Shown one piece after another: positions 44,145 to 48,960 of a stretch of 53,744 nucleotides of DNA. The DNA comes from Spirochaetaceae bacterium (GTDB lineage Bacteria > Spirochaetota > Spirochaetia > DSM-27196 > SKKC01). The translations under genes and the position numbers were made by a program. The notes beneath the pieces are model-generated. The model was not told where the DNA came from, ran no database searches, and was given only the letters and a program-made list of their open reading frames with translations. Within the stretch, counting starts at the first letter, position 1. Each line of letters starts with the position of its first letter. Location of the stretch: positions 1 through 53,744 of the forward strand of contig SKXQ01000072.1 in NCBI GenBank assembly GCA_007128315.1, written 5' to 3'.

Positions 44145-44906
44145 ATGAAACGAGAGTATCAGTATGGGATAATGCGAGCCCTTGTTCTGTTCCCGGCTTC
44201 CCTGGCGATAATCGCATCGTGCGAGCTCTTCTCAGGTACACGAACGGTCGTGCTTCATACACCGGAGCTCCCTTCGTCATGGCAGGAGTTTGCAGCGGAT
44301 CTGTGGTTTGACGTTACCGTGAACGGAACTCACGAAGGCTCAGTCAAGCCCGGAGATTCGCTGCATCTTGCGATACCGGCGGAAGGTCCATCGGTGGTTC
44401 TTGTCCTGCCCCGAATCGCACCGCGCGGCATAATTCTGATGCCGGCAGGTGCGGTAATCCGCGACAGTGAGGATATCGTATGGACATCGTGGGAAGACGG
44501 CCCGCTGGCAACGATTCTGAGACAGGTCGCCGAGGCAGGGTACCCGCTCCGCAGGGTCAATACGGTTCGCCTGCGCGAGGAGATCTCCACGCGGGCAGGC
44601 CGGCGCGCGTGGAGTATGAGCATTCCGCGGGTGGTCGACGCCATCGTCAACGAGCGCCTGCGTGTGTACGATCTGGCGCCGCAGTCTGCTGTCGATGTCG
44701 CGATAAACGCAGTGGCCGTCCCCGGGGGGGCACAGACATGGTTCAGGACAGATCCTCTGAATCCTGAGCCTGTAGAACGCCTTGGGAACGGACAGCTGGC
44801 CTTGTCGCTTCCCCCGGGAACGCACCTGCTTCTGAGCGTCGATGCAGTACGCGTGCTTGCTGTGCAGGTCTACGAGGACGGTACTGCGGTCGCGATCAGC
44901 CGATAA
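44145..44906 (+). CDS. Probable lipoprotein, function unknown
   Basis: 253 aa. Signal peptide with a lipobox-like end: [17 protein letters not shown], with Cys26 preceded by Ile-Ala-Ser, a form acceptable for spirochaete lipoproteins though not canonical L-A-G-C. The mature part is beta-rich ([49 protein letters not shown]). The central [23 protein letters not shown] region is helical. GAGGTG lies 5 nt before the ATG. The 3' end overlaps convergent leuS by 11 nt. Confidence 0.75.
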
Positions 44907-47364
44907 CGAAGTTAACCAGGCGGTTCGGGACAGTAATGATACGTTTGACCTCTGCGTCTGCAAGATAGCCTTGTATCTTTTCGAGCGAACGAGCAGTCTC
45001 TTCGAGAACTTCTTTTGAGCTGTCCCGGTCTGCCTCGAACTCCGCTCGGACCTTCCCGTTCACCTGAACCACGATCGTCAGTTGATCGTCGATCGCGAGT
45101 GCTTCGTCGTAGTCCGGCCACGGCGCGAGTGAGACGGGCGCTTCATACCCGGCACGTTCCCACAGTTCTTCCGCGATATGAGGAGTGTACGGTGCGAGAA
45201 CGCGCAGGAAGGGTTCCCAGAGCATGCGGTACAGACTGTCTTCCTTGTACAGCTCGTTCACGAAGATCATCATCTGTGAGATTGCCGTGTTGAAATCAAG
45301 ATTCCGGGTGTCCGATTCGACTTTCTTGATGGTTTTGTGGAGCATTCTCTTCAGGGCCAGCGGGGGCTCTCCGTCAAAGAGTTCCCGTTCACCGAGGCGC
45401 CATACGCGATCAAGAAAGCGATGCATACCCATAAGCCCGCTCGTTGACCAGGGTTTGCTCTGACGAAGCGGGCCCATGAACATCTCGTAGAGACGAAGAC
45501 TGTCTGCCCCGTACTCAGCGACTACATCATCGGGGTTTACGACGTTTCCGCGGGACTTCGACATGCGATTCCCGTCCGAGCCGAGTATCATTCCCTGATT
45601 AACCAGGCGTTGAAAAGGTTCGTTGTGGGAGACAACTCCAATATCGAACAGAACCTTGTGCCAGAATCGTGCATAGAGCAGATGCAGCACCGCGTGTTCG
45701 GCGCCACCGACGTAAAGATCGACCGGGAGCCAGTAATCGAGTTTTTCCCTGTCTGCGATAGCGTTCGTGTTTTTCGGATCGATATATCGAAGGTAGTACC
45801 AGCAGGATCCCGCCCATTGCGGCATAGTGTTGGTCTCGCGCCGTCCGGTTCGGCCCGACCCGTCGGGGCACCCGCAGTGTACCCAGTCATCAACCTTCGC
45901 CAGTGGCGATTCTCCGGTGCCGGCCGGTTTATAGCTCTCGACCTCGGGCAGGGTCAGCGGGAGCTGATCTTCCGGGACGGGAACGATATCGTCCCCGCAG
46001 TGGACAAGCGGAATCGGCTCGCCCCAGTATCGCTGCCGGGAGAAGATCCAGTCTCTCAGTTTATAGTTGATCGAATGAGCGCCACACTTGTGCTTTTCAA
46101 GCCAGCTGACTATCTCGCGCTTTACCGTTCCGGTATCTTTTCCGTCAAACTGACCGGAATTGCAGGCCACCCCGTCACCGGAAAAAGCCCCGTGGGCGAT
46201 TGTCTCGCCCTGACCCCCGGCCGGCACGTCTTTCCACGACTCCACCGCCGTATCAGTGACGACCTGAATGATCGGAAGTCCGAATGTTTCGGCGAACTCG
46301 TGGTCGCGCTCGTCATGACCGGGAACGGCCATAATAGCGCCTGTTCCGTAGCTCATGAGGACGTAGTCGCTGATCCAGACAGGGATCCTCTCCCTGTTGA
46401 CCGGGTTTACTGCATACGAGCCGGTAAAGGCACCGGTCTTGTCTTTGGCGAGATCTGTTCTTTCAAGGTCGCTTTTCAGGCGTGACCGGTCGATATACCG
46501 TTGTACCTCATCAGCCTGCCCGGAAGAGGTGATTTCCTTGACTACGGGGTGCTCGGGCGAGACAACCATATAGGTTGCCCCGAAGAGCGTGTCCGGCCGG
46601 GTTGTAAAGACTTCGAGTACCTCTGTACTGTCCTCGAGCGCAAACCGCACATTCGCACCCTCGCTGCGACCGATCCAGTTCCGTTGCATGGCCTTGATGC
46701 TTTCGGGCCAGTCGAGGTCTTCGAGTCCTTCCAGCAGTCTATCGGCGTATTCCGTTATCCTGAGCATCCACTGCCGGAGCGGACGCCGCTCGACGGGATA
46801 GTCACCACGTTCGCTCCGCGGACCGTCGGGGGTTGTCAGGACTTCCTCGTTGGCCAGGACGGTTCCCATGTCCGGGCAATACCATACTGGCACTTCCTCC
46901 ATGTACGCGAGTCCCCGTTTATAGAGCTGAAGGAAGATCCATTGTGTCCAGCGGTAATAATCGGGATCGTGCGTCGATACCTCCCGGTCCCAGTCGTACG
47001 AAAACCCGAGGCTTTTGATCTGTACGCGGAAGCGATCGATATTCTCTTCGGTGGTTGTACGGGGATGCGTGCCGGTTTTCAAGGCATAGTTTTCGGCTGG
47101 AAGGCCAAAACTGTCGAACCCCATGGGATGCAGAACCGCATAGCCCTGCATCCGAAGAAATCGTGAGTATATGTCCGTAGCGGTATAACCCTCGGGGTGA
47201 CCGACATGGAGGCCCGCTGCTGATGGATAGGGAAACATATCGAGGACGTATGCCCGCTTCTCCCGGGGAATCGACGGATCCTCGGTAATCCGGAAGGTCT
47301 TGTGAGACTCCCAGTAATCCTGCCACTTCTTCTCGATAGACTTGAACGGGTATTTTCTGCTCAT
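44896..47364 (-). CDS. leuS: Leucyl-tRNA synthetase
   Basis: 822 aa, bacterial-type class I synthetase. HIGH-type motif HVGHPEGY, the CP1 editing domain with the T-rich [17 protein letters not shown] and the conserved [19 protein letters not shown], and the KMSKS-type loop [11 protein letters not shown]. The C-terminal anticodon-binding and [17 protein letters not shown] ends are complete. The ATG lacks a Shine-Dalgarno; a promoter -10 ends 9 nt upstream. A structured non-coding region with its own terminator lies 66 nt and more before the ATG, so leuS is probably transcribed independently of the CorC gene. Confidence 0.97.
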
Positions 47365-47373
47365 GATCCGGAA

Positions 47374-47403
47374 ATACTACCGAGAACGGAGAATACGGGT
47401 CAA
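47374..47403 (-). promoter_or_regulatory. Promoter of leuS placed for a near-leaderless mRNA
   Basis: -35 TTGACC (47403-47398, 5 of 6), 18-nt spacer, -10 TAGTAT (47379-47374, 4 of 6). The -10 ends 9 nt before the ATG, giving a predicted leader of about 2-3 nt. Confidence 0.6.
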
Positions 47404-47430: not shown

Positions 47431-47469
47431 AAAAAAATCCCCTCAGGAAAGGAGGTAGAACCTGAGGGG
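47431..47469 (-). terminator. Strong rho-independent terminator upstream of leuS
   Basis: Read on the minus strand: nine-bp GC-rich stem CCCCTCAGG/CCTGAGGGG, 13-nt loop, then A and seven T. It would end transcripts from the CorC-like gene or a separate RNA before leuS. Confidence 0.85.
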
Positions 47470-47696
47470 CAACGCGGAAAGGACAACGTACAACCACACG
47501 ACTCGTTTCCGCTGACGACCACTTCATATCCGTGCTCACTCCGGATGGTGTGCCCGAAGTGAAGGTGGCGACTTACACGGGTGAAGCCACGTCAGCGTTG
47601 TGAATGTGCTGTCGGATTAGTCGCCAACGGCGGTGCATCGTCAAACACATTCACCCTGTAAACACAGACAGAGCTTCTCTGGTTACAGTTTTTTTT
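47470..47696. ncRNA. Structured non-coding region, candidate small RNA or structured 3' UTR
   Basis: Between the CorC-like gene and leuS there is no plausible gene, but the DNA holds a nested, ordered set of inverted repeats. GCGGAAA (47474) pairs with TTTCCGC (47506). CGCTGACG (47510) pairs with CGTCAGCG (47590), enclosing CACTTC/GAAGTG (47520, 47556) and ATCCG/CGGAT (47528, 47542). GTGAATGTG (47600) pairs with CACATTCAC (47646), enclosing CGCC/GGCG (47622, 47629). A competing pair, GGCGACT (47567) with AGTCGCC (47619), cannot coexist with two of these unless pseudoknotted. Terminator-like hairpins face outward at both ends, so strand is undecided. No tmRNA, SRP, RNase P, 6S or T-box consensus was recognised. 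Confidence 0.6.
47656..47696 (+). terminator. Plus-strand terminator-like hairpin at the CorC gene end
   Basis: CTGTAA (47656-47661), inner CAGAG/CTCTG, TTACAG (47683-47688), then eight T. It includes the minus-strand CorC stop codon. No plus-strand gene ends here, which supports a plus-strand RNA. Confidence 0.5.
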
Positions 47697-48960
47697 CAGA
47701 TTCCTGTATTTCGGTGGTTTTTTTTGGAATAAAGCGGACGGAAAGCACCTGTTTTCTCGATATCTCTTCAATGCTGAAGGCTCCAAAGGGTGTTTCGACG
47801 CGCTCCGAAGCCTGGGGTATACGGCCGATTTTCTCGGAAATATACCCGGCGACCGTCTGTATGTTTCGCCGATGGGGGAAATTGACCGCAAGATAGTCGT
47901 TCACGGCGTACAAGGGGGTATCACCGGCCATGCGGTAACTGCCGTCGGGCTGGTGGACAATGCGCTGCTGTTCACCCTGATCGCTTTCATCGTAAATTTC
48001 GCCGAAAATCTCCTCGACTACATCCTCGAGGGTCACGATTCCCGCGAGCCCTCCGTATTCGTCGAGCACGACTGCGAGGTGTTTCCGTTCGCGGCGAAAC
48101 TGCGCGAGCATGGCCTGTATCTTGTGCGTCTCCGGTACGAAAATCGGGCTCATCATAACGTCCTTGAGACGCAGATCACCGATGCTGCTTTCGTCGGAGG
48201 ACACGCTCTGAGCGAGATCCCGGGCGTGCACGACACCGACGATCCGCTCGGGATCACGATCGTACACCGGAAATCGCGAGAACCCCCGATTCAGGATCAC
48301 AGGAAAGACGTCGGAGACGAGGGTGTTTTTGTCCAGGCTGAACACCTGTGTGCGGTGCGTCATGATCATACTGACGGTCACGTCGTTAAAACGAAAGACG
48401 TTCTTCACCAGCCAGGATTCATGACTGGACAGCACTCCTACGCTCGCCGCGTGTCTCACGAGCGAAAGGATGCCCTCGGTCGTAGGCGTCCTGTGGGTGC
48501 TTCCACCGGTAAGTCGGCTGATTCCGCTGCTGACCCAGGAAACGAAGAGCACGAGTGGGAGAAACAGGATCTCGAGAATCCTGATCAGCCGTGCCGTATG
48601 GCACGCTATGCGTTCATTATGAACTATAGCGATCTGCTTCGGAGTAACCTCGCCGAAAATCAGAATGAAGAGCGTAAGGACACCGGTGGCTATACCCGGT
48701 CCGGAATCACCGAAGTAACGGGTTGCCAGCACAGTCGCCAGGCTCGCCGCGGTAATGTTCACGAGATTATTTCCAATCAGGATCGTCGAGAGCAGGCGAT
48801 CGGGACGCTGAATCAGCTTCTGTACGTGCTTCCCCTGGCGAGGCCAACGATCAGTAATGCCGTGAAGCTGGGACGGGCTGAGCGACGTGTACGCTGTTTC
48901 AACCCCCGAGAAGAATCCGGACAGGCCAAGCAGGCCGACCAGAAAGAAAGCCCCTGTCAC
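47683..48960 (-). CDS. CNNM/CorC-family membrane protein (HlyC/CorC-like)
   Basis: 425 aa. N-terminal CNNM transmembrane domain (about 1-190; the initial FFLVGLLGLSGFFSGVETAYTSL is characteristic), a CBS pair at about 205-335 (MIMTHRTQVFSL, GFSRFPVYDRDPERIVGVVHARDL; HLAVVLDEYGGLAGIVTLEDVVEEIFGEI is the second CBS with the family's signature) and a C-terminal CorC_HlyC domain (about 345-425, GSYRMAGDTPLYAVNDYL). Family members affect Mg2+ or Na+ transport, or were named after hemolysin C. GTG start with GGAG 8 nt upstream. Confidence 0.94.
   Translation of the reverse strand: MTGAFFLVGLLGLSGFFSGVETAYTSLSPSQLHGITDRWPRQGKHVQKLIQRPDRLLSTILIGNNLVNITAASLATVLATRYFGDSGPGIATGVLTLFILIFGEVTPKQIAIVHNERIACHTARLIRILEILFLPLVLFVSWVSSGISRLTGGSTHRTPTTEGILSLVRHAASVGVLSSHESWLVKNVFRFNDVTVSMIMTHRTQVFSLDKNTLVSDVFPVILNRGFSRFPVYDRDPERIVGVVHARDLAQSVSSDESSIGDLRLKDVMMSPIFVPETHKIQAMLAQFRRERKHLAVVLDEYGGLAGIVTLEDVVEEIFGEIYDESDQGEQQRIVHQPDGSYRMAGDTPLYAVNDYLAVNFPHRRNIQTVAGYISEKIGRIPQASERVETPFGAFSIEEISRKQVLSVRFIPKKTTEIQESEKKL

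Follow-up and report, generated by a model that had tools for sequence, protein, structure and literature searches.

Between a CorC/CNNM-type gene (corC, 47683-48960) and leuS (44896-47364), both read from the minus strand, contig SKXQ01000072.1 of a Spirochaetaceae bacterium carries a stretch with several long stems, which raises the question of what is encoded here, on which strand, and how the product might act. Throughout, the window denotes the whole 53,744-nt stretch of DNA that was analysed. The original prediction proposed a structured, unannotated RNA at this place, probably a small RNA (sRNA), and our analysis bears this out, with a revised strand and revised ends. The loop complementary to Shine-Dalgarno (SD) sequences and the promoter, both informative features, were absent from that prediction. 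At a probability of roughly two in three, we favor the reading that the element is an sRNA of an ECF sigma regulon that pairs with SD sequences without canonical Hfq.

Fold, strand and extent of the predicted RNA

The stems that had been proposed were found in their places: the arms at 47439-47447/47461-47469 and at 47600-47608/47646-47654 are complementary at 9 of 9 positions, those at 47510-47517/47590-47597 at 8 of 8, and those at 47474-47483/47503-47512 at 90% of 10. A competing pair, GGCGACT/AGTCGCC (47566-47573/47619-47626, 8 of 8 complementary), had been taken to force a switch or a pseudoknot; because L003, the third member of the genus, retains only part of this pair (by eye), neither is supported. 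The claim that such stems are unlikely by chance held up, most clearly on the minus strand, where the fold of the region (z = -4.35) beat all 200 shuffles, compared with z = -2.16 on the plus strand, where 4 of 200 shuffles were as good. For the predicted RNA alone, the scores were -3.9 on the minus strand (0 of 300 shuffles as good) and -2.0 on the plus strand (9 of 300).

The predicted RNA runs on the minus strand from about 47655 to 47431, is about 225 nt long, and is closed by a terminator hairpin; its predicted folding energy at 225 nt is -89.8 kcal/mol. Its ends are placed from the promoter and the terminator, such that the 5' end would lie about 5-8 nt past the -10 box and the 3' end at the U-run. 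Each of the three frames on the RNA strand holds at least one stop, and there is no clear coding sequence. The 5' hairpin domain (47600-47654, minus strand, arms 47646-47654 and 47600-47608) folds by itself with z = -2.5 (4 of 300 shuffles as good) and contains two double-changed pairs among three genus members. Compensating changes within the genus were also found in an internal hairpin (47534-47563, minus strand; genus alignment columns 98-124), and across the whole RNA double changes occur at 8 of 68 predicted pairs, a count drawn from three sequences only. By eye, a box at 47483-47500 on the minus strand (CGUGUGGUUGUACGUUGU), partly unpaired in the fold, has CGUGUGGUUGUACGU invariant in the own-family loci L001-L007.

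Rfam 15 gave no match at the gathering score in the window or in 20 homologous loci, in keeping with the claim that no known family fits; the best hit of a relaxed search reached 19.9 bits against a cut-off of 56.4, and ARAGORN found no tRNA or tmRNA in the window.

The minus-strand hairpin from 47469 to 47431 has the form of an intrinsic terminator, with a G+C-rich stem followed by a U-run. Its 9-bp stem, CCCCUCAGG/CCUGAGGGG (47439-47469), encloses a 13-nt loop, UUCUACCUCCUUU (47448-47460), and the U-run occupies 47431-47437. The terminator scan is weak evidence by itself, because it lists three minus-strand sites against 1.7 expected in shuffles; the hairpin is also seen in the stem check, in relatives, and in covariation.

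Of the two outward-facing terminators that had been proposed, the minus-strand one thus stands, and the plus-strand one (47656-47696) is better read as an ECF-type promoter on the minus strand. An RNA on the plus strand ending at 47696 would account for the hairpin followed by eight T at that position, but the hairpin is imperfect (13-nt arms, 85% complementary) and is not listed on the plus strand by the terminator scan, the plus-strand fold is the weaker one, the wobble pairs described below favor the other strand, and L003 keeps the outer boxes while the inner stem changes (by eye). We find this reading hardly credible.

Distribution, covariation and the conserved loop

A raw DNA search with the 396-nt region against 61 genomes (its own and 60 relatives) matched the whole region within the genus (91% and 79% identity) and 70-73 nt of it within the family. 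For 31 genomes from outside the family, the best match (E <= 2.9e-4) fell in query positions 58-127, which is the terminator hairpin. A covariance model built from 15 hairpins matched 44 of 46 order genomes at E <= 0.1. Of the 394 class genomes, it matched 170 at E <= 0.01, leaving 224 without a match at this threshold, and about 145 at E <= 1e-4. At E <= 1e-4, only 2 of 292 genomes in an unrelated control class matched, and a draw from the phylum gave 31 of 296 genomes, six of them outside the class (G410, G427, G433, G445, G451, and G457, at 31-38 bits). The own genome holds one strong copy at 63.9 bits, with the next match at 19.6 bits. A pattern scan of named genomes returned 33 loci, of which 25 carry spirochaete labels (Alkalispirochaeta alkalica included) and 7 are from non-spirochaetes; the non-spirochaete matches were taken as chance, since the best scores were 22.7-28.3 bits in 6 of the 7 genomes and one had no model match.

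The terminator stem covaries in relatives, as would be expected of a structured RNA. Across 91 distinct rows, its nine pairs are paired in 99.0% of 814 cells, and each of the nine has changed on both sides. The covariation score reaches 0.521, compared with 0.206 for shuffled and at most 0.132 for slid alignments, although the alignment was fitted to the structure of the model, which favors that structure. These counts are from 97 of 98 sources, with L050 omitted as a duplicate of L086; they are slightly stronger than a first count made on 87 of 98 hand-chosen sources. The stem contains 13 G-U or U-G cells against 1 A-C cell, a bias that favors the minus strand of the window as the RNA.

Within the stem, the loop is predicted to be open (unpaired probability at least 0.99) and, by its anti-Shine-Dalgarno (anti-SD) core ACCUCCUUU at 47448-47456, complementary to SD sequences, so that it could present an accessible seed for SD antisense pairing. 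The same ACCUCCUUU is also the 16S rRNA end in the four relatives checked; the 16S end, which reads GGATCACCTCCTTTCT, could be located in just these 4 among the 46 order genomes, the own genome not being one of them. A fifth candidate, L181, was rejected as not being 16S. Because ACCUCCUUUC, which is the loop plus the first stem base, is identical to the 16S tail of the four relatives, the hairpin repeats ten 16S-tail bases; unlike the 16S rRNA tail, it sits in the intrinsic-terminator loop of a separate RNA. On the RNA strand, ACCTCCTTT was present at the loop position in all 20 loci fetched. The model gave 123 matches, reduced to a working list of 103 by dropping 17 opposite-strand shadows, the weak same-strand match L158, and two duplicates (L050); the CTCCTT core is missing in 2 of these 103. 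Loop conservation among model matches is partly circular, because the model was trained on the loop, and the raw DNA search is its sole independent support.

The extent of the 16S identity raises the alternative that the hairpin serves as a decoy. It would then attract a protein with affinity for the 3' end of 16S rRNA, be it a ribosomal protein, an endonuclease, or a factor of 30S maturation, and ribosome assembly or activity would thereby be tuned in stress. The ten copied bases go beyond the CCUCC core needed for SD pairing, and many loci carry the motif twice, with a second CCUCCUU no more than 70 nt upstream in 41 of 103 rows. On the other hand, GAUC, which adjoins the core on its 5' side in 16S rRNA, is not copied, and a U-rich sequence stands there instead. 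We regard the decoy as a minor possibility beside SD pairing by an sRNA. The second CCUCCUU lies in a short 4-bp stem with 84.2% of cells paired in 20 aligned twin-type loci, which is modest support for that stem.

Promoter motif, sigma factor and neighboring genes

Upstream of the RNA lies a predicted ECF-sigma-type promoter, TGTAACC-N17-GTTT (47660-47687, minus strand), with its -35 box at 47681-47687 and its -10 box at 47660-47663. The motif has three exact matches in the own genome, the window site being one of them, and a reversed-pattern control had none. Among the other two, L167 (G000:C129:30440-30466) precedes an ABC-permease-like open reading frame (by eye) that may be a further member of the regulon, and L168 lies inside a gene. 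In relatives, TGT[AT]AC-N-(15 to 18)-GTT was found 5' of the hairpin in 53 of 96 loci (those of the 97 whose upstream sequence spans at least 120 nt). The spacer is 16 nt long in 47 loci and 17 nt in 6; the controls gave a mean of 1.02 and a maximum of 5 (shuffles), 4 (reversed), and 0 (reverse complement). By eye, L051 and L105 carry a sigma-70-like sequence in place of the ECF-type motif.

We take this motif to resemble ECF promoters with their SigX-type TGTAAC box, leading us to examine sigma loci for it. Among 20 of 55 places matching sigma-70 region 2 (PF04542), taken with flanks from six genomes, each genome has the motif in front of exactly one ECF gene (6 of 20 sigma loci). Three further matches (one in L184 and two in L187) in 30 scanned sigma loci were well away from the sigma-70 match. 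At all six ECF loci an in-frame ATG lies 29-33 nt downstream of the point where the -35 box begins; this ATG starts the ECF frame, except that in L219 it falls inside the frame. The ECF sigma gene thus appears leaderless, with almost no 5' UTR, in 6 of 6 genomes (L212, L216, L219, L223, L228, and L231). On its 5' side, a cysteinyl-tRNA-synthetase-like frame was seen by eye in 5 of 6 loci (not for L219). On its 3' side, all six have a putative membrane protein followed by a frame whose start looks like that of a secreted protein, partly cut by the end of the stretch; one such membrane protein weakly matches an anti-sigma model (22.8 bits against a cut-off of 100). Because the same motif precedes both the sRNA and the ECF gene, the sRNA appears to belong to an autoregulated ECF regulon, with a promoter type in common that is defined by the motif only and was not found in 43 of the 96 sRNA loci.

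The position of the promoter bears on the relation to corC, whose stop codon lies inside the -35 box. Since the two are on the same strand, read-through from corC would end at the same terminator, and the link to corC that had been proposed is in this respect fair, with the RNA gene lying 3' of corC on the same strand; the idea of a corC 3' UTR alone fared less well, as the RNA has a promoter motif of its own. Were the element only the corC terminator and 3' UTR, any small RNA would arise by processing, and the overlap of the corC stop with the promoter would fit, as would the presence of corC near 15 of 97 loci. However, the promoter motif lies between corC and the RNA, 82 of 97 loci have no corC match (some are cut), and a plain terminator would not preserve its loop, making this account quite unlikely.

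On the other side, a sigma-70-type promoter is predicted for leuS at 47374-47403 on the minus strand, although one promoter-like site was found there against 0.9 expected by chance; by eye, a promoter-like sequence follows the sRNA terminator in several relatives as well. A cis-acting leader or attenuator of leuS would explain why 23 of 97 loci have leuS on the 3' side in the same orientation, but this own predicted promoter past the terminator (in the window and, by eye, several relatives), the 74 of 97 loci without leuS (some cut), and the lack of an Rfam match make it very unlikely. Since leuS has its own promoter-like sequence past the terminator, the RNA is most likely its own gene, that is, a stand-alone sRNA gene on the minus strand. 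We also observed that leuS looks leaderless from the predicted TTGAC-type promoter, its start lying about 7-9 nt past the -10 box (window 47364-47403, L003, L051, L105, and L160, by eye).

Neighbors were counted over 97 loci of 1.6-8.2 kb, some of them cut, using window and L098 proteins as tblastn queries. Both leuS and corC are near in 13 loci; phosphofructokinase is near in 31 (L144 at only 27% identity), phosphoglucose isomerase in 21, and both of these in 18. None of the four is near in 38 of the 97 loci (some cut), and leuS and phosphofructokinase occur together in none. It is the order and families f15 and f35 that show the leuS context.

Proposed action, targets and related RNAs

We propose that the ECF sigma factor is autoregulated, with the anti-sigma-like membrane protein next in its operon, and that envelope or other stress would free the sigma factor to transcribe the sRNA. 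The terminator stem would keep the ACCUCCUUU loop open, and the loop could then pair with strong, accessible SD sequences of the AAAGGAGGU type in selected mRNAs, keeping 30S subunits off and reducing their translation, with no need for canonical Hfq. Which mRNAs are chosen would depend on the bases on either side of the core and on the 5' domain.

Targets were sought among 273 open reading frames of at least 200 aa in 443,586 bases (the window and 20 stretches of the own genome). SD sequences of 6 nt or more precede 21% of these 273 frames against 6% in the control; strong SDs being a minority, such an RNA could be selective. No target stands out among the 273 sampled frames. The loop forms its strongest duplexes (-14.5 kcal/mol and weaker) in front of ordinary genes, including those of a TolC-like protein and two solute-binding proteins (from their N-termini, by eye), which is weak evidence for any of them. 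The loop matches the general anti-SD, which by itself would not make it specific and counts against the favored reading.

This generality invites a class-wide reading in which the RNA mimics the ribosome tail and serves as a stress switch that would cover SDs in general, disfavoring SD-led mRNAs and sparing leaderless ones. It can be linked to the leaderless-looking mRNAs of the ECF sigma gene (6 of 6 genomes) and leuS (several species, by eye); we consider it unlikely. As for Hfq, a search of 394 class genomes yielded the canonical protein in just 1, as a contig-edge fragment, and it was not found in the own genome. Elsewhere among spirochaetes, Hfq is reported to be missing from Borrelia burgdorferi and present in two Leptospiraceae (PMC11607428).

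A search of the open-access literature returned no report of this RNA, and we place it as a new family within a known kind of sRNA. Like the proposed RNA, RepG of Helicobacter pylori uses a C/U-rich terminator loop as the seed for a G-rich sequence in mRNA leaders, and this loop works without a seed recruited elsewhere in the RNA; unlike it, RepG targets the tlpB G-repeat rather than SDs in general (PMC8295292). The spirochaete RNA also differs from RepG in sequence, lineage, and its ECF-type promoter. MicA and RybB are Sigma-E-dependent sRNAs. A further such RNA, VrrA of Vibrio cholerae, is driven by an envelope-stress sigma factor and is reported to pair near the mRNA 5' region to repress, with Hfq not strictly needed (PMC2628432). 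VrrA is nevertheless a different RNA under a different sigma factor, and for the spirochaete sigma factor envelope stress is a candidate signal. The LhrC sRNAs have C-rich loops or motifs. Members of this Listeria family are multicopy and induced by cell-envelope stress (PMC4132741 and PMC5880928). Their control is by the two-component system LisRK, not an ECF sigma factor, and their sequence and lineage differ.

If our favored reading is true, this would be a widespread and undescribed family of spirochaete regulatory RNAs, linked to a conserved ECF sigma system within a class whose genomes so rarely showed canonical Hfq. It would offer a concrete handle on post-transcriptional gene control in spirochaetes, and nature would here provide a test of how targets are chosen by an RNA with a near-universal anti-SD sequence.

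Additional anti-SD hairpins were observed in relatives. Five loci (L051, L086, L087, L088, and L089) each carry two such hairpins in tandem, the second being the terminator. Within the own genus and family, a second, weaker hairpin at 25.7-35.3 bits was found in L146-L150 (G001, G002, G003, G005, and G006), adjoining a lipoyl-synthase-like gene in L146; it was not found in the own genome (about 91% complete). The motif GUAC[G/A]UUGU lies 5' of this second hairpin in L146-L150, and is also present in the window RNA.
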